Assembly: GCF_015101885.1 (NCBI RefSeq)
Contig: NZ_CP062941.1
Location: 4,030,001-4,094,000 of the forward strand
DNA length: 64,000 bases
Reading direction: 5' to 3'
Source of the DNA: Massilia litorea
GTDB lineage: Bacteria > Pseudomonadota > Gammaproteobacteria > Burkholderiales > Burkholderiaceae_D
Part shown: in pieces, positions 36,355 through 46,658 of the stretch
How the letters are laid out: each line of letters starts with the position of its first letter
Position numbering within the stretch: the stretch's first letter is position 1
The notes under the pieces: model-generated
The model's input: only the letters and a program-made list of their open reading frames with translations
Told to the model about the DNA's origin: nothing
The model's database searches: none
Translations under genes and position numbers: made by a program

Positions 36355-37266
36355 TTGGGCAACAAGGAACAAGGATTCGCCATCGTCGTCCACGGCGGCG
36401 CGGGCGAACCGCTGGAGTTCGCCGACGGCTGCGAGCGTGCTGCGCGGCAGGCGCGCAGCAAACTGCTGGAGACGGGCGACGCCCTCGACGCCGCCATCGC
36501 CGCGGTCCTGGTGCTCGAAGAAGACGAACGTTTCAATGCCGGCACCGGTTCGGTGCTATGCCTGGACGGCGCCACCATCGAAATGGACGCCTCGATCATG
36601 GACACCCGCGGCCGCCTGGCCGCCGTCGCCGGCGTGCGCGACGTGCGCAACCCGGTCCTGCTGGCGCGCGCAGTGGCCGACACGCCGCACGTCTTCCTGG
36701 CCGGCGAAGGCGCCGACCGCCTCGCGCGCGCCCTCGGACTGGAGCGCGCGCAGCCCATCCGCGCCAGCCAGCGCGACAAACACCAGAAGCTGCTGAAGGA
36801 GCTGGCCGGCTCGGTGCCGGCCATGCCCGGCATCGACAACCGCCTGTTCGAGCGCTTCTGGAATTACAAGACCCCGCTGCAACTGCCGCCGAGCGCCGCC
36901 CACGACACGGTCGGTGCCGTCGTGCGCGGGCCGGATGGCCATTTCGCCGTGGCCGGTTCGACCGGCGGCTCGGCCCCTTCCCTGCTGGGACGGGTCGGCG
37001 ATACCGCCATCATGGGCAGCGGCTTCTATGCCGGGCCGCTGGGCGCGATCGCCGCCACCGGCGTCGGCGAGCACATCGTGCGCCACATGCTGGCGCGCAC
37101 CGTCTACGGCTATCTCGAACAGGGCATGCCGCTGCAGCTGGCCCTCCAGCGCGGCATCGACCTGATCGACAGGGACGTCGACACGGGCCTGATCGGCGTC
37201 ACCAGAACGCAAGCTGCCTCCTGCAGCAACACGCATATGCCAATTGGGAAGATCGAACAGCAATGA
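36355..37266 (+). CDS. Isoaspartyl peptidase / L-asparaginase (Ntn hydrolase)
   Basis: 303 residues, type-2 asparaginase family, a precursor that cleaves itself before a catalytic Thr. The N-terminus reads FAIVVHGGAGEPLEF, and the nucleophile is Thr185 in SAAHDTVGAVV, followed by GSTGGSAPSLLGRVGDTA. The start is TTG (GAGAGGAAG upstream); no ATG fits. It overlaps cyanophycinase by four bases. In that setting it most likely splits beta-Asp-Arg dipeptides released from cyanophycin into aspartate and arginine. Confidence 0.88.
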   Translation: MGNKEQGFAIVVHGGAGEPLEFADGCERAARQARSKLLETGDALDAAIAAVLVLEEDERFNAGTGSVLCLDGATIEMDASIMDTRGRLAAVAGVRDVRNPVLLARAVADTPHVFLAGEGADRLARALGLERAQPIRASQRDKHQKLLKELAGSVPAMPGIDNRLFERFWNYKTPLQLPPSAAHDTVGAVVRGPDGHFAVAGSTGGSAPSLLGRVGDTAIMGSGFYAGPLGAIAATGVGEHIVRHMLARTVYGYLEQGMPLQLALQRGIDLIDRDVDTGLIGVTRTQAASCSNTHMPIGKIEQQ

Positions 37267-38147
37267 AAACCGAACCACACCACACCGCATCGCACGGCCA
37301 CCTCGTCATCATCGGCGGCCACGAGGACCGCAAGCACGGCAAGGAAATCCTGGCCCGTTTCGTCGAACTGGCGGGCGGGGAGAATGCCCGCATCGTCGTC
37401 ATCACCGCCGCCAGCCAGATCGCCGAAGAGATGTGGGACCAGTACGACCAGGCCTTCGGCGACCTTGGCGTCCGCCAGCGCTTCCACCTGCCGCTGGCGA
37501 GCCGCCAGGACGCGAACGACGAAGCCAAGGTGCGCATGGTGGCCGAGGCCGACGGCATCTTCATGACCGGCGGCGACCAGAAGCGCCTGCTGGCCATCAT
37601 CGGCGGCACTGCACTCGACGCCGAGATGCACACCGCGCTCAAGGTACGCGGCGCCTGCATCGGCGGCACCAGCGCCGGCGCCTCGGCCATGTCGGGCCAT
37701 ATGCTGGCCCAGGGCAAGACCGACCTGCTGCCCGAGAAGGGCGCGGTCAGCCTCGCGGCCGGACTCGGCTTCCTGCACCGCGTCGTCATCGACCAGCATT
37801 TTTCGGAGCGCCAGCGCCTGTCGCGGCTCCTGTCGGTGGTGGCGCAGAACCCGTATTTGCAGGGCATCGGGATCGACGAGGACACGGCCCTCGTGGTCGA
37901 GCGCGGACGCGGCATCGAGGTGCTGGGCGAAGGCTCGGTCACGGTGGTCGACGGCCGCACGATGGACACCAACATGGCCGACATCCAGGAGCGCGACACG
38001 CCTGAACTGATCGACGTGCGCCTGCACCTGCTGCCGGCCGGCAGCCGCTTTTACCTGCCGACGGACGACGAACCGCTGACCAAGCCGATGTCGCCCTCGC
38101 TGCGCGATTTCTTGGAAAATGTAACGAAACGGAACCCGATCTCATGA
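37263..38147 (+). CDS. cphB: Cyanophycinase
   Basis: 294 residues, serine peptidase of family S51. It cuts cyanophycin into beta-Asp-Arg dipeptides. The nucleophile motif GACIGGTSAGASAMS (G-T-S-A-G) and the substrate-pocket segment VIDQHFSERQRLSRLL are both visible, as is the FMTGGDQKRLL loop. The N-terminus has a short His-rich lead (KTEPHHTASHGH). It lies between the isoaspartyl peptidase and cphA, each overlapping by four bases, so synthesis and breakdown genes are one unit. It has no signal peptide, so it acts in the cytoplasm. Confidence 0.93.
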   Translation: MKTEPHHTASHGHLVIIGGHEDRKHGKEILARFVELAGGENARIVVITAASQIAEEMWDQYDQAFGDLGVRQRFHLPLASRQDANDEAKVRMVAEADGIFMTGGDQKRLLAIIGGTALDAEMHTALKVRGACIGGTSAGASAMSGHMLAQGKTDLLPEKGAVSLAAGLGFLHRVVIDQHFSERQRLSRLLSVVAQNPYLQGIGIDEDTALVVERGRGIEVLGEGSVTVVDGRTMDTNMADIQERDTPELIDVRLHLLPAGSRFYLPTDDEPLTKPMSPSLRDFLENVTKRNPIS

Positions 38148-40735
38148 GAATTCTCGAACAACGCTTCCTGCGCGGCCCGAATCTGTACAGCGCCGCACCT
38201 TGCCTGATGGCGGTCGCCGATCCGGCCGGTCTCGACCTTGCGCCCGGGTTCGGCGCGCGTCTGCTGGCACTGCTGCCGGAGCTGTCGCCCGAAGTAGCGG
38301 CGCGCCTGGCCGGCATTCAGAATGCCGCGCAGGCGCTTGAACCAGTCGTGATGGAACTCCAGCGCCTGGCCGGCGCCCCGGCCGATTTCAGCCAGACCCT
38401 GGACGTGCCGCGCAAAACCGAGGTCCGGCGCGCCGTCTGCGGCTACCGTACCGAACAGGTGGCACGCCTCGCCTTCGACACGGCACTCGATCTGATCAAG
38501 GCCGTCGCGCGCGGCGAAGACTTCGATCTCGCCCGGGCCGTCGATGCGCTCCATGAAACGGCCGAGGATTATGCGATCGGCACCAGTACCGGCGCCGTGG
38601 TCAACGCGGCGCTCAAGCGCGGCATCCCCAGCCTGCGCATCACCGACGAAGCAAACCTGTTCCAGCTCGGCTGGGGCTCGAAGCAGAAGCGCCTGCAGGC
38701 GACCATCACCGGCGCCACCAACTCGATCGCGGTCGGCATCGCCAGCGACAAGCAGCTGACCAAGACCCTGCTCGAGCAGGCCGGCGTGCCGGTCCCGGGC
38801 GGCTCCACCGTCACCACGCTGGCGGACGCCCAGCGCGTGGCGCGCCGCCTGGGCGGCCCGGCCACCATCAAGCCGCTCGACGCCAACCAGGGCAAGGGCG
38901 TCACCACCACCTGCACCACGCCGGAGGAAGTCGAGCGCGCCTTCGAGCACGCCCGCAAGTACGGCCGCTACGTGATCGTCGAGGAATTCCTCGAAGGGCG
39001 CGACTACCGCGTGCTGGTCACCGGTAACAAGATCGCCGCCGCTTCCTGGCGCCGTCCGCCCTGCGTGACCGGCGACGGCAAATCCACCGTGCGCGAACTG
39101 GTCGAGGTCGAGAACCGCAACCCGGCGCGCGGCGAAGGCCACACGAATATTCTTACCAAGATCCCGCTGGATGACCTGGCGGCTTCCACGCTCGCGAAAC
39201 AGGGCTATGGCTTCGATTCGATCGTACCAGGCGGCGTCAGCGTCGACCTGCGCGGCAACGCCAACCTGTCGACCGGCGGCACCGCCGAAGACGTGACCGA
39301 CCTGCTGCCCGAAGAGACTCGCGAGATCTGCATCCGCGCCGCGCGCACCATCGGCCTCGATGTCGCCGGCATCGACGTGATCTGCCAGGACATCTCGCAG
39401 CCGCTGCGCGAACAGAAAGGCGGCATCATCGAAGTCAATGCCGCCCCGGGCATCCGTATGCACCAGTACCCGAGCCGAGGCACCCCGCGCGACGCCGGCG
39501 CGGCGATCGTCGAGGCCCTGTTCGGCGACAGCGACGGCCGCATCCCCGTGGTTGCCATCACCGGCACCAACGGCAAGACCACGACCTCGCTGCTGATCGC
39601 GCACGCCGCCCGCCTGTCGGGCCTGCGCACCGGCGTCACCACTACCGAGGGCGTCTACATCGACGGCCAGCTGACCATGAAGGGCGACTGCACCGGCTAC
39701 CGCTCGGCACGCAGCCTGCTCACTTCCCCGGAAGTCGACTTTGCCGTGCTGGAAACGGCGCGCGGCGGCATCCTGAAACGCGGCCTTGCCTATGACCGCT
39801 GCGACGTCTCGGTGGTGCTGAACGTCTCCTCCGACCACCTGGGCCTGGACGGCGTCGAGACCATCGAGGACCTGGCGCGCGTGAAAGCGGTCGTCGCCCA
39901 GCGTGCTTCGCGCGCGGTGGTACTGAATGCCGAAGACGATTACTGCGTGGCCATGGCCAGGGACCTGGCGGAGAACGTCGAAGTCCTGTACTTCGCGCTG
40001 GATGAAGACAACCCGGTCCTGCTGCGCCACCTGGAGCGCGGCGGCCGCGGCGTCTACCTGGAAGACAACACCGTCGTGCTGGCGACCGGCGCGCGCCATG
40101 AAGCCCTGGTGGACGTGCGCCAGATGCCGGTCTCGCTGAACGGCTGCGCGCGCTACAACATCGCCAACGCCCTGGCCGCGACCGCCGCCCTGGCCGCGAG
40201 CGGCTTCGGCAACGCCGAGATCGTGGCCGGCATGCGCAGCTTCGTCTCGGACAGCAAGCACAACCCGTTGCGCTCGAACGTGTTCGACGTCGACGGCGTG
40301 ACCGTCATCGTCGACTACGCCCACAACTGCGCTGCCTACGCCGCGCTGTCGGAAACGGCGCGCGCCATGACGCCGGGCCGGGTGGTCGGCGTGGTCGCCG
40401 CCCCGGGCGACCGCCGCGACGCCGACCTGGTCGACGTCGGCCGCACCTGCGCCGCCGGCTTCGACGAGCTGGTCGTATACGAGACCGAGAACCGCGGCCG
40501 CTCCGAGGGCGAAGTGGCCGCTTTGCTGGTGCAGGGTGCGCGCCTGGGCCGCGTTGCCCAGGACAAGCTGTCCTGCGAGCTGGACGTGCACCGCGCGATC
40601 CGCAAGGGTTTGTCGCTGTGCCAGCCCGGCGACGTGCTGGTGTTCGGCTGCGGGTCGTCGATTTCGGAACTGACGGAGGCGCTGCGGCCGACCAGGCCGG
40701 AGATTGCGCAGCGGATCGAGGCGGAAGCGGTGTGA
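38144..40735 (+). CDS. cphA: Cyanophycin synthetase, copy 1 with divergent N-domain
   Basis: 863 residues. ATP-grasp domain (about 190-440) that adds aspartate or arginine and a Mur-ligase-like domain with P-loop GTNGKTTT (474-481). LFQLGWGSKQKRLQ, EVNAAPGIRMHQYPSRGTPRD and YAHNCAAYAAL are family marks. In the N-domain the segment corresponding to cyanobacterial H-x-x-E-H-V-A-L-E-L-Q reads QALEPVVMELQ (63-73), and the GTY and GFGRTR motifs are gone, unlike the copy at 40997. It makes the Asp backbone with Arg side chains, alone or with that paralogue. A terminator follows. Confidence 0.92.
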   Translation: MRILEQRFLRGPNLYSAAPCLMAVADPAGLDLAPGFGARLLALLPELSPEVAARLAGIQNAAQALEPVVMELQRLAGAPADFSQTLDVPRKTEVRRAVCGYRTEQVARLAFDTALDLIKAVARGEDFDLARAVDALHETAEDYAIGTSTGAVVNAALKRGIPSLRITDEANLFQLGWGSKQKRLQATITGATNSIAVGIASDKQLTKTLLEQAGVPVPGGSTVTTLADAQRVARRLGGPATIKPLDANQGKGVTTTCTTPEEVERAFEHARKYGRYVIVEEFLEGRDYRVLVTGNKIAAASWRRPPCVTGDGKSTVRELVEVENRNPARGEGHTNILTKIPLDDLAASTLAKQGYGFDSIVPGGVSVDLRGNANLSTGGTAEDVTDLLPEETREICIRAARTIGLDVAGIDVICQDISQPLREQKGGIIEVNAAPGIRMHQYPSRGTPRDAGAAIVEALFGDSDGRIPVVAITGTNGKTTTSLLIAHAARLSGLRTGVTTTEGVYIDGQLTMKGDCTGYRSARSLLTSPEVDFAVLETARGGILKRGLAYDRCDVSVVLNVSSDHLGLDGVETIEDLARVKAVVAQRASRAVVLNAEDDYCVAMARDLAENVEVLYFALDEDNPVLLRHLERGGRGVYLEDNTVVLATGARHEALVDVRQMPVSLNGCARYNIANALAATAALAASGFGNAEIVAGMRSFVSDSKHNPLRSNVFDVDGVTVIVDYAHNCAAYAALSETARAMTPGRVVGVVAAPGDRRDADLVDVGRTCAAGFDELVVYETENRGRSEGEVAALLVQGARLGRVAQDKLSCELDVHRAIRKGLSLCQPGDVLVFGCGSSISELTEALRPTRPEIAQRIEAEAV

Positions 40736-40755
40736 TTCTTGCTGCCGGTGGATGC

Positions 40756-40783
40756 GAGGGCGGCCCGGGGGCCGCTCTTTTTT
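40756..40783 (+). terminator. Rho-independent terminator after cphA copy 1
   Basis: Stem GCGGCC / GGCCGC with extending A-G/C-T pairs, a CGGG loop and a run of six T (40778-40783). Confidence 0.8.
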
Positions 40784-40812
40784 CTTGCTTCGCCGGTAGG
40801 CAAACGGTGTAA

Positions 40813-40908
40813 CGCGTGGGCTCGGAGAGCCCACCCTACGGTGCACCACGGTCTCGACTCAACCCGGCGATGGCCGTGCACCGTAGGGTGGGCACTTGTG
40901 CCCACGCG
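40813..40908. repeat. Inverted pair of the interspersed palindrome
   Basis: Minus-oriented copy at 40813-40840 and plus-oriented copy at 40882-40908. The symmetry continues beyond the units: CCACCCTACGGTGCAC (40831-40846) faces GTGCACCGTAGGGTGG (40876-40891). It lies between the two convergent cyanophycin synthetase genes and their terminators. Confidence 0.82.
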
Positions 40909-40951
40909 GATCACCGCCCGCACAAGGCCTGCGTTCGCAATGGCCACCTGC

Positions 40952-40976
40952 AAAAAACCCCGCACACGGCGGGGTT
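40952..40976 (-). terminator. Rho-independent terminator after cphA copy 2
   Basis: Stem AACCCCGC (40956-40963) and GCGGGGTT (40969-40976), five-base loop, followed on the minus strand by a run of T. Confidence 0.88.
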
Positions 40977-40996
40977 CTTCATTCGGGCGACAACTA

Positions 40997-43630
40997 TCAG
41001 ACCGTCTGCGCCTCGATCCTGTCCGCACTCTCCGGATCGTCCACGCGCAATGCGTCGATGAAGGTCTTCAGCGAAGACCCGCAGGCAAACACCAGCACGT
41101 CCCCAGCGCGGCACAGCGACAGGCCGAGGCGGATCGCCTTGTCGACCTCGATCTCGCGATGCGTCGTATCCGACGGCCCGACCACCTTCTCGATGCCTTC
41201 GATGATCAGGTCGACTGCGCCGCCGACCTCGCGCCCGCGGCTTTGCGACTCATAGACCACCAGCTCGTCGAAGCGCTCGCCGCAGACTTCCCCGATCTGG
41301 ACCAGGTCGCTGTCGCGGCGGTCGCCGGGCGCGGTCACGATGCCGACCAGCTGGCCCGGCAGCAGCGCGCGCGCCATTTCGGCCAGCGCCGCGTAGGCCG
41401 CCGGGTTGTGGGCGTAGTCGACGATCACGGTCACGCCGCGCACGTCGAACACGTTCGTGCGCAGCGGGTTGGTCTTGCTGTCGGAGACGAAGGTCGACAG
41501 GCCGGCGGCGATCTGCAGGTTCGAGAAGCCCGAGGCCATCAGCGCCGCGCTGGCCGCCAGTGCGTTGGCGATGTTGTAGCGCGCGCGGCCGCCGAAGGTC
41601 GAGGGCATGGCCTCGACCCGCATCAGTTCCTGGTGCAGGGTGCCGTCGGCGATGACGATGGCGTTGTCCTGCAGGTAGGCGCCGCGGCCTCCGTCTTCCA
41701 GGTGCTGCAGGAAGGTCGGGTTTTCGGCGTCCATCGAGAAGAAGATGATTTCCGCGCCCGGCCTGGCGCGGCGCGCCATCGACACGCACAGCGCATCCTC
41801 GGCATTGAGCACGACCGCCTTCGACGCCGAGGTGGCCACCACCGCCTTGACTTGCGCCAGGTCTTCGATGGTGTCGACCCCGTCCAGCCCCAGGTGGTCT
41901 CCGGCGACGTTCAGCACGACGCCGACGTCGCACTGGTCGAAAGCCAGGCCGCGCTTCAGGATGCCGCCGCGCGCCGTTTCCAGCACGGCGAAGTCGACGT
42001 CCGGGGCCGACAGCACGGTGCGGGCCGACCAGTAGCCGGTGCAGTCGCCCTTGACCAGGCGCTTGCCGTTGACGAACACGCCTTCGGTGGTGGTGACGCC
42101 CGTGCCCAGGCCCGCGACGCGCGCCGCGTGGGCGATCATCAGGGTGGTCGTGGTCTTGCCGTTGGTGCCGGTGACGGCGACCACCGGAATGCGGCCGTTC
42201 GATGGGCCCATCAGGCCGTCGACGATGGCCTCGCCCGCGTCGCGCGGCAGGCCGGCGCTCGGGTGCTGGTGCATCCGGATGCCGGGCGCGGCATTGACTT
42301 CGATCACCGCCCCACCCTGCTCGTCCAGCGGCAAGGCGATGTCGCGGCAGACGATGTCGATGCCGGCCACGTCCAGGCCGATCTTGCTGGCCGCGCGCAC
42401 GCACAGGGCGCGCGTCGATTCGGGCAGGAGGTCGGTCACGTCTTCGGCGGTGCCGCCGGTCGAGAGGTTGGCATTGCTGCGCAGTTCGACGCAGACGCCC
42501 GGCGCCGGCACGGAATCAGGCGCGTAGCCCTGGCGGCGCAGCATGTCCTCGGCGTGGGCGTCGAGCGCGAGGCGGGTCAGCACATTGCTGTGGCCCGCGC
42601 CGCGCGCCGGGTTCTGGTTTTCGATCTCGACCAGTTCCGTGATGGTCGACACGCCGTCGCCGGTCACGTGGGCCGGACGGCGCAAGGAAGCGGCGGCAAT
42701 GCGGCCGCCAGCCACCAGCACGCGGTAGTCGCGGCCCTCGACGAAACGCTCGACGATGATGCGGCGTCCGTATTCGCGCGCGAATGCGAAGGCTTTCTCG
42801 ACTTCCTCCGGCGTCGAGCACCTGGTGGTGACGCCCTTGCCCTGGTTGCCGTCGAGCGGCTTCAGCGTGACCGGCACCCGCAGGCGGCGCGCGATGCGCT
42901 GCGCCTCTTCCAGCGCGGTGACGGTGCCGCCTTCGGGTACCGGCACGCCGGCTTCCATCAGCAGCGCCTTGGTCAGCTGCTTGTCGCTGGCGATTTTGAC
43001 CGCGACGTAGCTGGTGTCGCCGGTGGTCGTGGCCTGCAGGCGCTTCTGCTTCGAGCCCCAGCCCAGCTGGAACAGGTTCGCCTCGTCGGTGATGCGCGTG
43101 TACGGAATGCCGCGCTCGTGGGCCGCGGCCAGCACGGCAGCCGTGCTGGTGCCGATGGCATAGCGCGAGCCCAGGGAACGCAGCTCCTGCAGGCGCGGCT
43201 CGATGTCGAATTCCTCGCCGCCCGCCAGCGCCGTGACCAGGTCGACCGCCAGCTGGAAGCTCGGCTCGGCCAGCTTTTCGATCGCATACTGCACCACCAC
43301 GCGGTACTGGCCCGGGCGCCCGGCGGCCGGGCGCGTGCGGCCATAGCCGACCGTCGGGCCGGCCAGCGACTGCAGGGCCAGGGTGACGTGTTCGACCACG
43401 CGCGCCAGGTAGGTGCCGGCGCGCAGGCGCTGGGCGAAGCCGCCCGGCTGGCCGGTCGGCAGCAGCTGGCCGTGCAGGGACGGCAGCGCCGCCAGCAGCG
43501 CGTCGTTGAAGCCGGGGATGTCTTTCGAGGAGACGCCGTACAGGTCTTCCAGGTCGATCAGGCTGAGCAGGCAGGGGGTGTCCGCGTGGACGTTCGGTCC
43601 GCGCAGGAATCGTTGTTCGAGGATGTACAC
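40997..43630 (-). CDS. cphA: Cyanophycin synthetase, copy 2 with canonical N-domain
   Basis: 877 residues. It has the same ATP-grasp and Mur-ligase domains as the copy at 38144 (LFQLGWGSKQKRLQ, VTGTNGKTTTTLM, EVNAAPGIRMHQHP). Its N-domain keeps the classical features IPGF (38-41), GGF (63-65), AGTY (71-74) and VGYGRTR (94-100). The primer-making metallopeptidase-like motif, HIVEH in cyanobacterial CphA1, reads RVVEH (77-81), so Glu and the second His remain but the first His is Arg. It is convergent with copy 1 and 90 bases downstream of the di-iron enzyme gene. Confidence 0.92.
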   Translation of the reverse strand: MYILEQRFLRGPNVHADTPCLLSLIDLEDLYGVSSKDIPGFNDALLAALPSLHGQLLPTGQPGGFAQRLRAGTYLARVVEHVTLALQSLAGPTVGYGRTRPAAGRPGQYRVVVQYAIEKLAEPSFQLAVDLVTALAGGEEFDIEPRLQELRSLGSRYAIGTSTAAVLAAAHERGIPYTRITDEANLFQLGWGSKQKRLQATTTGDTSYVAVKIASDKQLTKALLMEAGVPVPEGGTVTALEEAQRIARRLRVPVTLKPLDGNQGKGVTTRCSTPEEVEKAFAFAREYGRRIIVERFVEGRDYRVLVAGGRIAAASLRRPAHVTGDGVSTITELVEIENQNPARGAGHSNVLTRLALDAHAEDMLRRQGYAPDSVPAPGVCVELRSNANLSTGGTAEDVTDLLPESTRALCVRAASKIGLDVAGIDIVCRDIALPLDEQGGAVIEVNAAPGIRMHQHPSAGLPRDAGEAIVDGLMGPSNGRIPVVAVTGTNGKTTTTLMIAHAARVAGLGTGVTTTEGVFVNGKRLVKGDCTGYWSARTVLSAPDVDFAVLETARGGILKRGLAFDQCDVGVVLNVAGDHLGLDGVDTIEDLAQVKAVVATSASKAVVLNAEDALCVSMARRARPGAEIIFFSMDAENPTFLQHLEDGGRGAYLQDNAIVIADGTLHQELMRVEAMPSTFGGRARYNIANALAASAALMASGFSNLQIAAGLSTFVSDSKTNPLRTNVFDVRGVTVIVDYAHNPAAYAALAEMARALLPGQLVGIVTAPGDRRDSDLVQIGEVCGERFDELVVYESQSRGREVGGAVDLIIEGIEKVVGPSDTTHREIEVDKAIRLGLSLCRAGDVLVFACGSSLKTFIDALRVDDPESADRIEAQTV

Positions 43631-43667
43631 GAGAATGTCCCTATTGTTGGAATTTTATGTAGTCGAC

Positions 43668-43698
43668 GGCCGCCGCTCTCCGCGTGGGGGCGGCGGCC
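43668..43698. other. GC-rich hairpin between the di-iron enzyme gene and cphA copy 2
   Basis: Perfect nine-base arms GGCCGCCGC and GCGGCGGCC with a 13-base loop and no T-run. It may reduce read-through between the two minus-strand genes or protect the mRNA end; it is not a convincing intrinsic terminator. Confidence 0.5.
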
Positions 43699-43720
43699 GC
43701 TTGCTTGCGTGTTGAGGGCT

Positions 43721-45175
43721 TTAACTGTCCAGGAGCTGGGTGTACATGCGGGTCGCCATCAGGCCGGCGGCCGTATGGTGGCCCGCAGGCGTCATCAGCT
43801 CGAGCAGCAGCGCCATCGCTTCCGCCTTGCCGGCGGCGGAGGCGACGCGGCCTTCGAGCAGCGCCAGTTCGTTGTCCGACTCGCTGTCGCGTGCCGCCCG
43901 ACGGCGGATCAGGCCGCGCTCGGGGAAGTTGGTGCTGCGGTCGGCGTGCTGGCCCAGGTTGTCCAGGGTGCGCTGGCGCGCGCGCCAGGTCAGCGTGCGT
44001 TCCTGTTTGACGGTGGCGCCCGGCGCCGTGACGATCCAGTCGCGCAGCACCTGCAGTTCGTAGGCCGAGAAGACGCCGAACATCTCGGCGCGTTCGCCTT
44101 CGACCAGGCGCCAGAAGCGGCTGTTCTCCACCTCTTCGCCGCGCTTGATCCAGCCTGCCGTTTCCATGGCCGACAGGAAGCCCGGGATCTGGCCCGGTTC
44201 GGCCAGCCAGTCGTTGACCGAGCGGCCGGCGACGCGGCAGTAGTCGGAGTGCATGTTCTTGCCGACCCTGCTCTTCTGGGCCAGGACGGTCACCACTTCT
44301 TCCTGCAGGTCGAAGTCGGCGATCACGGAATTCGTGCTCGCGCCCAGTTCGTTGAGGCGGTAGCCGTCGAGCACGCGCTTGTAGAAGGCGGCGCGGTCGC
44401 CGACGCGCGGCATCAGGTCGAGCAGGGCCTGCACCGCCTTTTGCGCGTGGCCGGTGGCGGCATTGTCGACCGTGACGTGCAGCTGGAAATAATAGGGGTC
44501 GATGCCGAATTCGTTCAGTTCATACGAGGTAATCAGGAGGTGCAGCGGCAGCTGCTCGTAGCCGAGGTTGAAGCCGATGACCTCCGGCAGAAAGCGCTCG
44601 GCGTTATGGCCCAGGGCCAGTTGGATCGCGCCCTGCACGAAATGGTCGTCGCTCAGCTGCTCCCAGTTGTCGATGCCGTGGGTAGCGAGCAGCTTGCGGT
44701 AGATCGTGACATGGTTCTTGTCCGGCACGCCCTCGCCCAGCTCTTCGAGATAGGTCTTGATCAGCGGGTGGAAGTCAGGGCTGTCCCAGTTCCTGAGCAT
44801 GCCGTACAGCCAGGATCCGTCGACCAGCTTGGTCGGCGCGGCCGACTTGATGAAATTCAGCGCATGCGCCTTGTTGGAGAAATAGCGGCGCGGCGCACCG
44901 CCCTTGCGGGCCGCCAGGTATTCGCGGTACTGGATGCCGACGGCTTCACTGCGCGCCTCGATCCAGGCCGGGAGCTGGGCCAGGGTGGGCGGCAGGTCGG
45001 CCGGGATGTCCTGCACGGCGGCGATCTGGTCGCGCAGGAAGGCCTCGCCGGCGCGGGCGTTGTGCTGCGGGTCGGCGTACAGGGCGAAGTACAGGTCCCG
45101 CGCGCGCGCATGCGCGTGCACGCGGCGTGCGGCCTGGACGGATTCTTGTACATCGGTAACGGGCGATGGCATCAT
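43721..45175 (-). CDS. Haem-oxygenase-like di-iron enzyme (iron-containing redox enzyme family)
   Basis: 484 residues. The central part (about 120-260) fits the haem-oxygenase-like di-iron oxidase (HDO) fold: E148-x6-H155 in EGVPDKNH, E207 in GFNLGYEQLPLH, and H233-x3-D237-x5-H243 in QLHVTVDNAATGH. These six residues correspond to the ligands of CADD/UndA-type enzymes. The C-terminal 200 residues are helical and unassigned. Known HDOs oxidise amino acids or fatty acids; the substrate here is unknown, but the gene lies directly upstream of cphA copy 2 on the same strand. The start (ATG ATG, 45175/45172) lacks a clear ribosome site. Confidence 0.72.
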   Translation of the reverse strand: MMPSPVTDVQESVQAARRVHAHARARDLYFALYADPQHNARAGEAFLRDQIAAVQDIPADLPPTLAQLPAWIEARSEAVGIQYREYLAARKGGAPRRYFSNKAHALNFIKSAAPTKLVDGSWLYGMLRNWDSPDFHPLIKTYLEELGEGVPDKNHVTIYRKLLATHGIDNWEQLSDDHFVQGAIQLALGHNAERFLPEVIGFNLGYEQLPLHLLITSYELNEFGIDPYYFQLHVTVDNAATGHAQKAVQALLDLMPRVGDRAAFYKRVLDGYRLNELGASTNSVIADFDLQEEVVTVLAQKSRVGKNMHSDYCRVAGRSVNDWLAEPGQIPGFLSAMETAGWIKRGEEVENSRFWRLVEGERAEMFGVFSAYELQVLRDWIVTAPGATVKQERTLTWRARQRTLDNLGQHADRSTNFPERGLIRRRAARDSESDNELALLEGRVASAAGKAEAMALLLELMTPAGHHTAAGLMATRMYTQLLDS

Positions 45176-45295
45176 AAACGTTTGTTCACAATCTTGTTGA
45201 ATGATCACCGGAATTATCCGGGCTGGGCCATGCACCGCACATCGGCACGCACCCTCAATGCATGTAAGACAAGCCTTACAAAAATGCAAAAATGT

Positions 45296-46462
45296 TCACA
45301 CTCGGTGCAACTGCGGGGTGTGCGAGGGCTCGTCGCCGAGGCAAATGCCCAGATCACGTGCGGTTGCGACCGTGTCGCCATCGACCGGCACCAGCCTGGT
45401 GCGCCCGGCGACAGCATCCAGGGGCACCAGTTCGATCGTTTGCGGCCCGAGCGCGACCATGACCCCATCCTGTCCGGCAGCCAGCGCGCGCACCGCGGCC
45501 GCGCCGAATCGGGCGGCGATCACCCGGTCGAAGGCCGAGGGAGGGCCGCCGCGCAGCAAGTGTCCAAGCACGACGCTGCGGCATTCTTTTGTCGTGAGCG
45601 CAGCCAGCTGCGCCTCCACACGCGCGCCGATGCCGCCGAGGCGCTCGGCGTGCCCGGCCGCGGCCCCTTGCCGCACTTCGCGCGCGCCACCCTCCTGCTG
45701 CGCGCCCTCGGCCACGACCACGATCGCATGGTGGTGGCCGGCCGCATCGCGCCGCGCGATCGCTTCCAGCACCGCCTCGATCCGGTAGGGGATTTCAGGA
45801 ATCAGGATCGCATGGGCGCCGCCGGCGATGCCCGCATGCAGGGCGATCCAGCCTGCGTAGCGGCCCATCACCTCGACCACCATCACGCGGTGCTGGCTGT
45901 GCGCCGTCGTGTGCAGGCGGTCGATGCATTCGGCGGCGAAGCCCACCGCGGTATCGAAACCGAAGGTGAAGAAGGTCCGGTCGAGGTCGTTGTCGATGGT
46001 CTTCGGCACCCCGGCCACGCGCAGGCCCTGGGTATGCAGGGCCTGGGCGATCCCCATCGAGCCGTCGCCGCCGCAGATCACCAGTGCGTCGAGCCCGCGC
46101 GCGCGGCACAGGGCGACGACTTCCGCCGTACGGTCGCGCTCCACGACTTGCCCGTCCGCACCGGGCGTCGGATAGTGGAGCGGATTGCCGCGGTTGGTGC
46201 TGCCGAGGATGGTGCCGCCGAGGTGGCCGATCGATTGCACGTCCAGGGCGCGCAGGCGCGTCACCGGTTCCCCGGCGCAGGTGTCGGGCGCGAGCAGCCC
46301 GTTGAAACCGTCGCGGATGCCGTGGCACTCCCAGCCGAGGCGCCCGGCCGCGAGCACGACGGCGCGGATCACGCCGTTCAGCCCGGGCGCGTCGCCGCCT
46401 CCAGTCAGCACGCCGATGCGGCCGATGGGTGCGGGGATCGATTTCGCTGCTTGCGCGGCCAC
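45296..46462 (-). CDS. 6-phosphofructokinase, group III, possibly pyrophosphate-dependent
   Basis: 388 residues. N-terminal GVLTGGGDAPGLNGVIR and catalytic PKTIDNDLDRT are clear. The phosphoryl-donor motif is GGDGS (ATP type: Gly) while the later motif is PKTIDND (Lys, as in PPi-dependent enzymes, instead of Gly), the mixed state seen in actinobacterial and methanotroph group III enzymes. Donor choice cannot be settled from sequence. Starts at a GTG preceded by GGGAGG. The C-terminal 40 residues after VMVALGPQTIELVPLDAVAG are slightly extended. It does not appear to be part of the cyanophycin unit. Confidence 0.85.
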   Translation of the reverse strand: MAAQAAKSIPAPIGRIGVLTGGGDAPGLNGVIRAVVLAAGRLGWECHGIRDGFNGLLAPDTCAGEPVTRLRALDVQSIGHLGGTILGSTNRGNPLHYPTPGADGQVVERDRTAEVVALCRARGLDALVICGGDGSMGIAQALHTQGLRVAGVPKTIDNDLDRTFFTFGFDTAVGFAAECIDRLHTTAHSQHRVMVVEVMGRYAGWIALHAGIAGGAHAILIPEIPYRIEAVLEAIARRDAAGHHHAIVVVAEGAQQEGGAREVRQGAAAGHAERLGGIGARVEAQLAALTTKECRSVVLGHLLRGGPPSAFDRVIAARFGAAAVRALAAGQDGVMVALGPQTIELVPLDAVAGRTRLVPVDGDTVATARDLGICLGDEPSHTPQLHRV

Positions 46463-46658
46463 CTTGCCTCCCGTTCAGGATCGCCAATACGAGCATGATG
46501 CGGGCGTGTGGAGCACGGCGGCGCACGCATGCGCAAAGCCAACGCCGTCGCAGGCCGGACGACGGACAGGCGGCGATACGCTTGCATGCATGTGCAGTGA
46601 GCCGAACAGGCGTAGCATGTACTCCATTGTGTCTTCAGTCGGGCACAGGGAGACGGCG

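Follow-up and report, generated by a model that had tools for sequence, protein, structure and literature searches.

A DtpC-family oxygenase gene beside a second cyanophycin locus in Massilia litorea and its co-occurrence with a methyltransferase

In a stretch of 64,000 nucleotides of the Massilia litorea genome (contig NZ_CP062941.1, positions 4,030,001 to 4,094,000; hereafter the window), the gene P0002 encodes a haem-oxygenase-like di-iron oxygenase (HDO) and lies next to genes for the synthesis and breakdown of cyanophycin. The protein is almost certainly a member of the family of DtpC, an HDO of Acinetobacter baumannii that protects against desiccation and oxidative stress and was published in 2026 (PMC13232832, cited throughout from the accessible part of the paper). 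Its gene co-occurs across genomes with that of a methyltransferase and, in one clade, adjoins a distinct group of cyanophycin synthetases, here termed CphA-D. The reading we favour, with a probability of about 0.45, is that a DtpC-type oxygenase N-oxygenates a small protective metabolite together with the methyltransferase, and that it was recruited beside the second cyanophycin locus of this genome. HDOs and DtpC are already known. A limited literature search, mostly outside subscription papers and with some of the lists cut short, showed among the papers listed no report of an HDO at a cyanophycin locus, of the pairing of an HDO with a methyltransferase, or of a CphA-D clade, which is weak evidence of absence. 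In their accessible parts, the Sharon 2023 survey (PMC10206079) mentions neither heme nor Massilia nor Burkholderiales, the DtpC paper mentions no methyltransferase, and a biocrust study on Massilia sp. METH4 (PMC11844795) mentions genes of cyanophycin synthesis and hydrolysis and leaves the HDO gene unmentioned.

The assignment to the HDO superfamily and to the DtpC family comes from profile and homology searches. A Pfam profile search placed PF14518 (Haem_oxygenas_2) at residues 107-264 of the protein (E=7e-29, 101.3 bits against a cut-off of 28.9); at E values up to 1, Pfam gave no second domain, a cupin included, and NCBIfam gave no match at all. A protein search recovered 3122 relatives at E<=0.001 out of 7996 scored candidates. 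Using tblastn against plasmid records we found, among the matches listed, three A. baumannii records with 35.6% identity over query residues 30-482 (94% of the protein), so that the homology is full-length and includes the C-terminal region. These records (NZ_CP104448.1, NZ_CP064203.1 and NZ_CP077849.1 in PLSDB) are filed as plasmids, although with 3.7-4.1 Mb they resemble A. baumannii chromosomes. The A. baumannii frame at locus L107, when started at its tenth residue, has E143, H153 and H232; 54 bp behind it lies a gene for catalase HPII. In the published work, survival is not restored by any of the DtpC variants E143A, H153A and H232A, and dtpC shares an operon with katE, the gap between them being 54 bp (PMC13232832). 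Since the L107 homologue displays these published features, both the residues and the gap, the membership of the Massilia protein in the DtpC family leaves, on sequence grounds, very little room for doubt. The three essential residues of DtpC correspond to E145, H155 and H233 of the Massilia protein. The two systems differ in their surroundings, the Massilia gene adjoining cphA-D and dtpC adjoining katE. They also differ in that the Massilia genome carries a PrmC/GenN-type methyltransferase of a family missing from the A. baumannii record that was searched. A first-pass annotation of this DNA had described known HDOs as oxidising amino acids or fatty acids, which is narrower than the literature: the accessible text of the DtpC paper counts RohS and CADD among the HDOs, gives DtpC itself no known substrate, and presents it as the sole HDO with a link to desiccation or oxidative stress (PMC13232832).

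The candidate metal ligands were read from an alignment of 80 relatives. Near-invariant positions are H155 (78/80), E207 (80/80), H233 and D237 (79/80 each) and H243 (78/80), and conserved carboxylates are found upstream at E145 (77/80), E144 (76/80) and D119 (77/80, with E in two others). Five of the six ligands proposed in the first-pass annotation are therefore among the most conserved residues of the family. The sixth, E148, is not: 28 relatives have E at this position, 35 have D, 12 have N and 5 have another residue or a gap. E145 takes its place, and the E-x6-H spacing that had been proposed from CADD is not a conserved feature of the Massilia HDO family. In a weak phmmer match (E=0.97), D119, E145, H155, E207, H233 and D237 align with SznF positions 189, 215, 225, 281, 311 and 315 (counted by hand from the alignment), which we take to be the residues that SznF uses. 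The predicted ligand set is thus D119, E145, H155, E207, H233, D237 and H243, of the type with three histidines and four carboxylates (3H/4C). By homology to DtpC and SznF, these side chains would cluster in space. A review describes SznF as a 3H/4C enzyme that has an additional Glu, a type estimated to make up about 25% of HDOs (PMC13108848, accessible part). Exceptions to the seven-residue set are the fragmentary locus L048 and the loci L070 and L071 of the f25 genomes G025 and G072. The latter two hold a second HDO paralogue in which E145 is replaced by N or T and H243 by S or C; the same genomes also carry an HDO-methyltransferase pair (L065, L066), and the ligand-losing paralogue is possibly an inactive partner subunit.

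The predicted model of the protein (pLDDT 84.9, pTM 0.85) displays the HDO fold, with lower confidence at residues 231-240 (pLDDT 59), where part of the ligand segment is located. The domain match, the ligand residues and the predicted fold agree on an HDO of the di-iron type, as first proposed, with metal binding as a prediction, and from the sequence and the model an active di-iron enzyme appears highly probable. In the comparison of folds, the top VIA rows are RohS, HrmI, SznF and FlcD, with 3bjd among them under another label, and CADD, BesC, HamA and UndA come after. RohS and HrmI share 12-15% sequence identity with the Massilia protein, and their alignments end near residue 303, so that its C-terminal extension has no counterpart there. 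The substrate of RohS is 2-aminoimidazole. HrmI acts on lysine, and SznF differs from the Massilia protein in having a C-terminal cupin (PMC13108848, accessible part). The C-terminal region of about 190 residues is conserved family-wide in the alignments and is common to DtpC. Modelled alone, it is predicted to be mostly helical (pLDDT 73.6, pTM 0.48), and this weak model gave no fold match in the PDB. A cupin was considered for this region and was ruled out by Pfam and by the predicted secondary structure.

The association with the methyltransferase was assessed in 145 genomes of the family. HDO occurs in 41 of them and the methyltransferase in 34, with an overlap of 33 genomes (Fisher 6e-24, no correction for ancestry), which corresponds to 33 of the 41 HDO genomes against one of the 104 genomes lacking HDO. 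Of 42 HDO loci, 13 have the two genes side by side and in the same orientation. In a second order, that of genome G460 and on sequence grounds probably Pseudomonadales (the HDO of G460 is 74% identical to a Stutzerimonas protein), 6 of 155 genomes have HDO and 7 have the methyltransferase, which lies directly downstream of HDO in all six, one of these HDOs being cut by a contig end. The arrangement varies between lineages. Pseudoduganella (L040, L041, L047) and locus L095 have the order HDO, methyltransferase, iaaA, cphB, cphA; psychrophilic Massilia and other family members (L043, L044, L076-L078, L080-L082) carry HDO and methyltransferase together with no cph genes in the flanks; and in f25 genomes (L065, L066, L069) the two are divergent neighbours. 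In the genus of the window HDO is located at the cph locus in 8/8 HDO genomes, and the methyltransferase is found elsewhere in 7/8. The protein matches the MTS methyltransferase family and its NPPY motif is invariant in 14/14 aligned sequences. For one sequence, the best PDB match was the gentamicin N-methyltransferase (E=2e-11), followed by PrmA and HemK; with the PrmC model, whose cut-off is 199 bits, two sequences scored 78 and 67. Taken together, a coupling of the HDO with the methyltransferase is likely.

The first-pass annotation also placed the HDO gene directly upstream of a cyanophycin synthetase on the same strand, and this is correct: 90 bp separate its end from the start of CphA-D copy 1. 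Among 49 close relatives in named genomes, a biased set since they were found with the HDO protein itself (the nearest, at 89%, is from Massilia), cphA lies directly downstream of HDO in 36 and 0.9-3.1 kb further on the same strand in 7, with cphB, iaaA or the methyltransferase in between; in the remaining 6, no cph gene lies in the flanking sequence covered. The rearranged orders are HDO-cphB-cphA, HDO-iaaA-cphA and HDO-methyltransferase-iaaA-cphB-cphA. Looking from the side of the synthetase, HDO is present in 17/17 CphA-D genomes of the 145 family genomes, CphA-D being called at >=56% identity to P0123 among the matches listed. In 16 of these both genes lie within 3.1 kb on one contig, and the remaining genome, a draft, has them on different contigs. 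By the same call, 24 of the 41 HDO genomes are without CphA-D; this count leaves out an adjacent and more divergent CphA copy in G674 (45-53% identity, L085). CphA of any kind is present in at least 109 of the 145 genomes, among the matches listed. The HDO gene lies away from cphA in G171, G133 and G178, where CphA is on another contig or far off, and CphA gave no match in the HDO genome G025. The association with cyanophycin genes thus stands for one clade and fails in other lineages. Beyond the family, a class-wide sample has HDO in 3/369 genomes, that of M. litorea included.

The phylogenetic trees agree with a clade-specific link. The 38 CphA-D rows group in a single clade, separate from 22 other CphA/CphA' rows (SH-aLRT 100 in a quick tree), with two canonical rows, L128 and L129, joining its branch under a long-branch warning. 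The HDO tree places the rows linked to cph genes inside a single Oxalobacteraceae group (53 rows, support 98/93), where three label changes are counted and a single one is not excluded; the group label rests on named loci. This tree left out duplicate loci, rows shorter than 1000 bases and rows with stops, and the DtpC rows and several others form long branches of unsure placement. Because the cph-linked HDOs are confined to this one group, the pairing of HDO with methyltransferase appears to predate the cph link, as far as a tree with no outgroup can suggest. The locus L048 (Massilia sp. CF038), which entered the tree as a fragment, has its HDO match split over two frames and no cph genes in the sequence around it; either the gene is degenerating or the sequence contains an error.

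Other members of the family lie near stress-related genes. In A. baumannii, the neighbours of DtpC are katE and a short-chain dehydrogenase/reductase (SDR) of the PRK06701 type; katE is located near HDO relatives in L105, L107 and L108, and an SDR also in L105. Locus L108, on an Acinetobacter johnsonii plasmid (NZ_CP083948.1), combines HDO, the catalase gene katE, DUF421 and the trehalose genes OtsA and OtsB, and at least 11 plasmid-size Acinetobacter records carry a similar HDO in tblastn, among the matches listed. Trehalose-type neighbours are TreY and TreZ with an SDR in L066, TreS in L069, and MalQ and TreY in L078. In the 64-kb window, an A. baumannii KatE query gave no match at E=1e-15.

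In the mechanism that we favour, two metals would be bound by the seven-ligand site (D119, E145, E207 and D237; H155, H233 and H243) and O2 would be activated, after which the HDO would most likely N-oxygenate a small nitrogen-containing substrate. The methyltransferase would probably act in the same pathway, in a manner similar to SznE, which acts with SznF on arginine (PMC11705231, accessible part). Protection against drying and oxidative stress, the role of DtpC in Acinetobacter, would then come either from the product or from the O2/iron chemistry itself, and the pathway would yield or use up a substance that shields cells when they are dried or oxidised. The cyanophycin locus may serve as a source of arginine, come under the same stress regulation or act as a store for the product. 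Considering that the HDO lies upstream of CphA-D, CphB and IaaA in one Oxalobacteraceae clade, cells probably draw on stress protection and on nitrogen storage or arginine supply in the same circumstances. What the data establish directly is the family, the conserved residues, the predicted fold and the co-occurrence and adjacency of the genes; di-iron loading, N-oxygenation, a pathway shared with the methyltransferase, a protective product and the reason for the cyanophycin link are inferred from these. N-oxygenation of the substrate is an evenly balanced proposition, and the formation of a protective metabolite is held slightly more tentatively. Several observations weigh against this reading. 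The reaction is not readable from the HDO fold, a Foldseek search of the model against the PDB gave no match below E=0.001, and the family profile reaches RohS by sequence at E=0.35 only. The methyltransferase is non-adjacent in 29/42 HDO loci and missing from 8/41 HDO genomes of the family, and the Fisher values ignore shared ancestry. The A. baumannii record with DtpC contains no methyltransferase of this family, only three partial matches to the S-adenosylmethionine core (best E=6.5e-17 over 84/321 positions), so that the enzyme is dispensable for the protective role there. Moreover, L069, L088, L089 and L102-L104 have neither katE nor SDR in their flanks, the katE, SDR and trehalose neighbours come from raw listings with no background rate, and a hairpin before cphA leaves co-transcription with HDO undecided.

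The proximity to cyanophycin genes had led to the proposal that the HDO acts on arginine, aspartate, beta-Asp-Arg or cyanophycin itself. Such a direct role would account for the operon-like order with CphA-D, CphB and IaaA in 43/49 close relatives, rearranged orders included, and for the occurrence of HDO in every CphA-D genome among the matches listed, and it would be in line with the activity of SznF on N-methylarginine (PMC11705231, accessible part). However, in an order-wide sample CphA is present in 114/300 genomes and HDO in 11/300 (one of them, G015, by a weak match), therefore CphA needs no HDO. Likewise, more than half of the HDO genomes are without CphA-D by threshold, and some family members adjoin katE and trehalose genes. 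Given the methyltransferase partner, these neighbours in some lineages and the homology to DtpC, the wider context does not favour action on any of the four compounds, and we consider a direct role in cyanophycin metabolism unlikely. The variant in which HDO and methyltransferase make an N-oxygenated, N-methylated arginine-type compound, which CphA-D, CphB and IaaA would store and release as modified cyanophycin, is very improbable; the modified polymer would in that case hold a stress-protective metabolite in place of, or mixed with, plain arginine.

A further alternative is that proteins of the DtpC type keep iron bound or remove O2, superoxide or H2O2, and protect in this way with no dedicated metabolite. 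DtpC limits H2O2 in dried cells redundantly with KatE, and an iron chelator helps dtpC mutants, although the same source reports no protection by DtpC from acute H2O2 (PMC13232832). The protein works in A. baumannii, where the searched record is without the methyltransferase, yet this enzyme co-occurs with HDO in other lineages and the closest folds are those of biosynthetic N-oxygenases, which makes protection by iron or oxygen scavenging rather doubtful. It could also be argued that the HDO arrived next to the cyanophycin genes by accident in a single ancestor and has persisted there with no functional meaning, as the grouping of the cph-linked HDOs in the tree and the hairpin between HDO and cphA would allow. 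This is improbable in our view, considering that gene order varies between genera while HDO still adjoins the cph genes, and that no CphA-D without HDO was found in the 145 genomes among the matches listed. A first handle on DtpC is the methyltransferase that travels with the HDO family in two orders, an indication of a biosynthetic step and of what type of substrate is involved. The katE and trehalose genes beside some relatives in other genera provide a second handle, and the separate CphA-D clade, always accompanied by HDO in this sample of 145 genomes, a third. Together these handles make the reaction of DtpC testable in harmless soil bacteria, and the pairing with the methyltransferase hints at a small-molecule stress pathway beside a nitrogen-storage locus.

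Table 1. Positions of the HDO gene, its candidate metal ligands, the neighbouring cyanophycin genes and the methyltransferase gene (window coordinates unless stated).
Feature	Position	Strand	Evidence
DtpC-family HDO gene (P0002)	43721..45175	minus	Intact open reading frame, 484 codons; PF14518 E=7e-29
C-terminal region of HDO, residues 290-484	43724..44308	minus	Family alignment, aligned to DtpC
Codon of D119, candidate metal ligand	44819..44821	minus	SznF position 189 (weak alignment, E=0.97); D in 77, E in 2 of 80
Codon of E145, likely metal ligand, replaces E148	44741..44743	minus	DtpC E143, SznF 215; 77/80
Codon of H155, likely metal ligand	44711..44713	minus	DtpC H153; 78/80
Codon of E207, likely metal ligand	44555..44557	minus	80/80
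H233-x3-D237-x5-H243 ligand segment, core helix 3 (low model confidence)	44447..44479	minus	79, 79 and 78 of 80; DtpC H232
CphA-D copy 1 (P0123), cyanophycin synthetase, HDO-linked clade	40997..43630	minus	TIGR02068, 1035 bits vs 850
G+C-rich hairpin, HDO stop to cphA start	43666..43700	minus	-30.2 kcal/mol, z -2.87
CphA-D copy 2 (P0124), convergent	38144..40735	plus	TIGR02068, 947.6 bits vs 850; 62% identical to copy 1
Cyanophycinase gene cphB	37263..38147	plus	TIGR02069, 266.6 bits vs 126.6
Isoaspartyl-dipeptidase-type gene (Asparaginase_2, IaaA-like)	36355..37266	plus	PF01112 E=5e-64
Methyltransferase gene of the M. litorea genome	G000:C1:4652451-4653374, outside window		Profile/homology search

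The features of the locus are listed in Table 1. The product of the IaaA-like gene matches the NCBIfam beta-aspartyl-peptidase model below its cut-off. The G+C-rich hairpin in the gap between HDO and cphA-D is predicted in the window and in 16 further folded loci in the range L002 to L034; its sequence varies from locus to locus, and visual inspection showed no run of T behind it. Of seven hairpins tested, four have z values of -2.4 to -3.9 and three of about -1.4, so part of the effect is base composition; the element may serve in attenuation, in RNA processing or in an unusual form of termination. CphA-D resembles the synthetases of canonical CphA1 loci in passing the cyanophycin synthetase models and differs from them in forming a separate clade. 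A cphA-cphA' locus with a cyanophycin-associated ABC transporter (NF052233) is present elsewhere in the same genome (L073, C1:2690000-2706000), and M. litorea therefore has four cphA-type genes. The plus strand of the HDO interval is also stop-free, and an antisense open frame of 1919 codons (40739-46498, plus) spans cphA-D, HDO and pfkA. A stop-free opposite strand is a common effect of high G+C content, and this frame is probably such an artefact and a trap for open reading frame callers.
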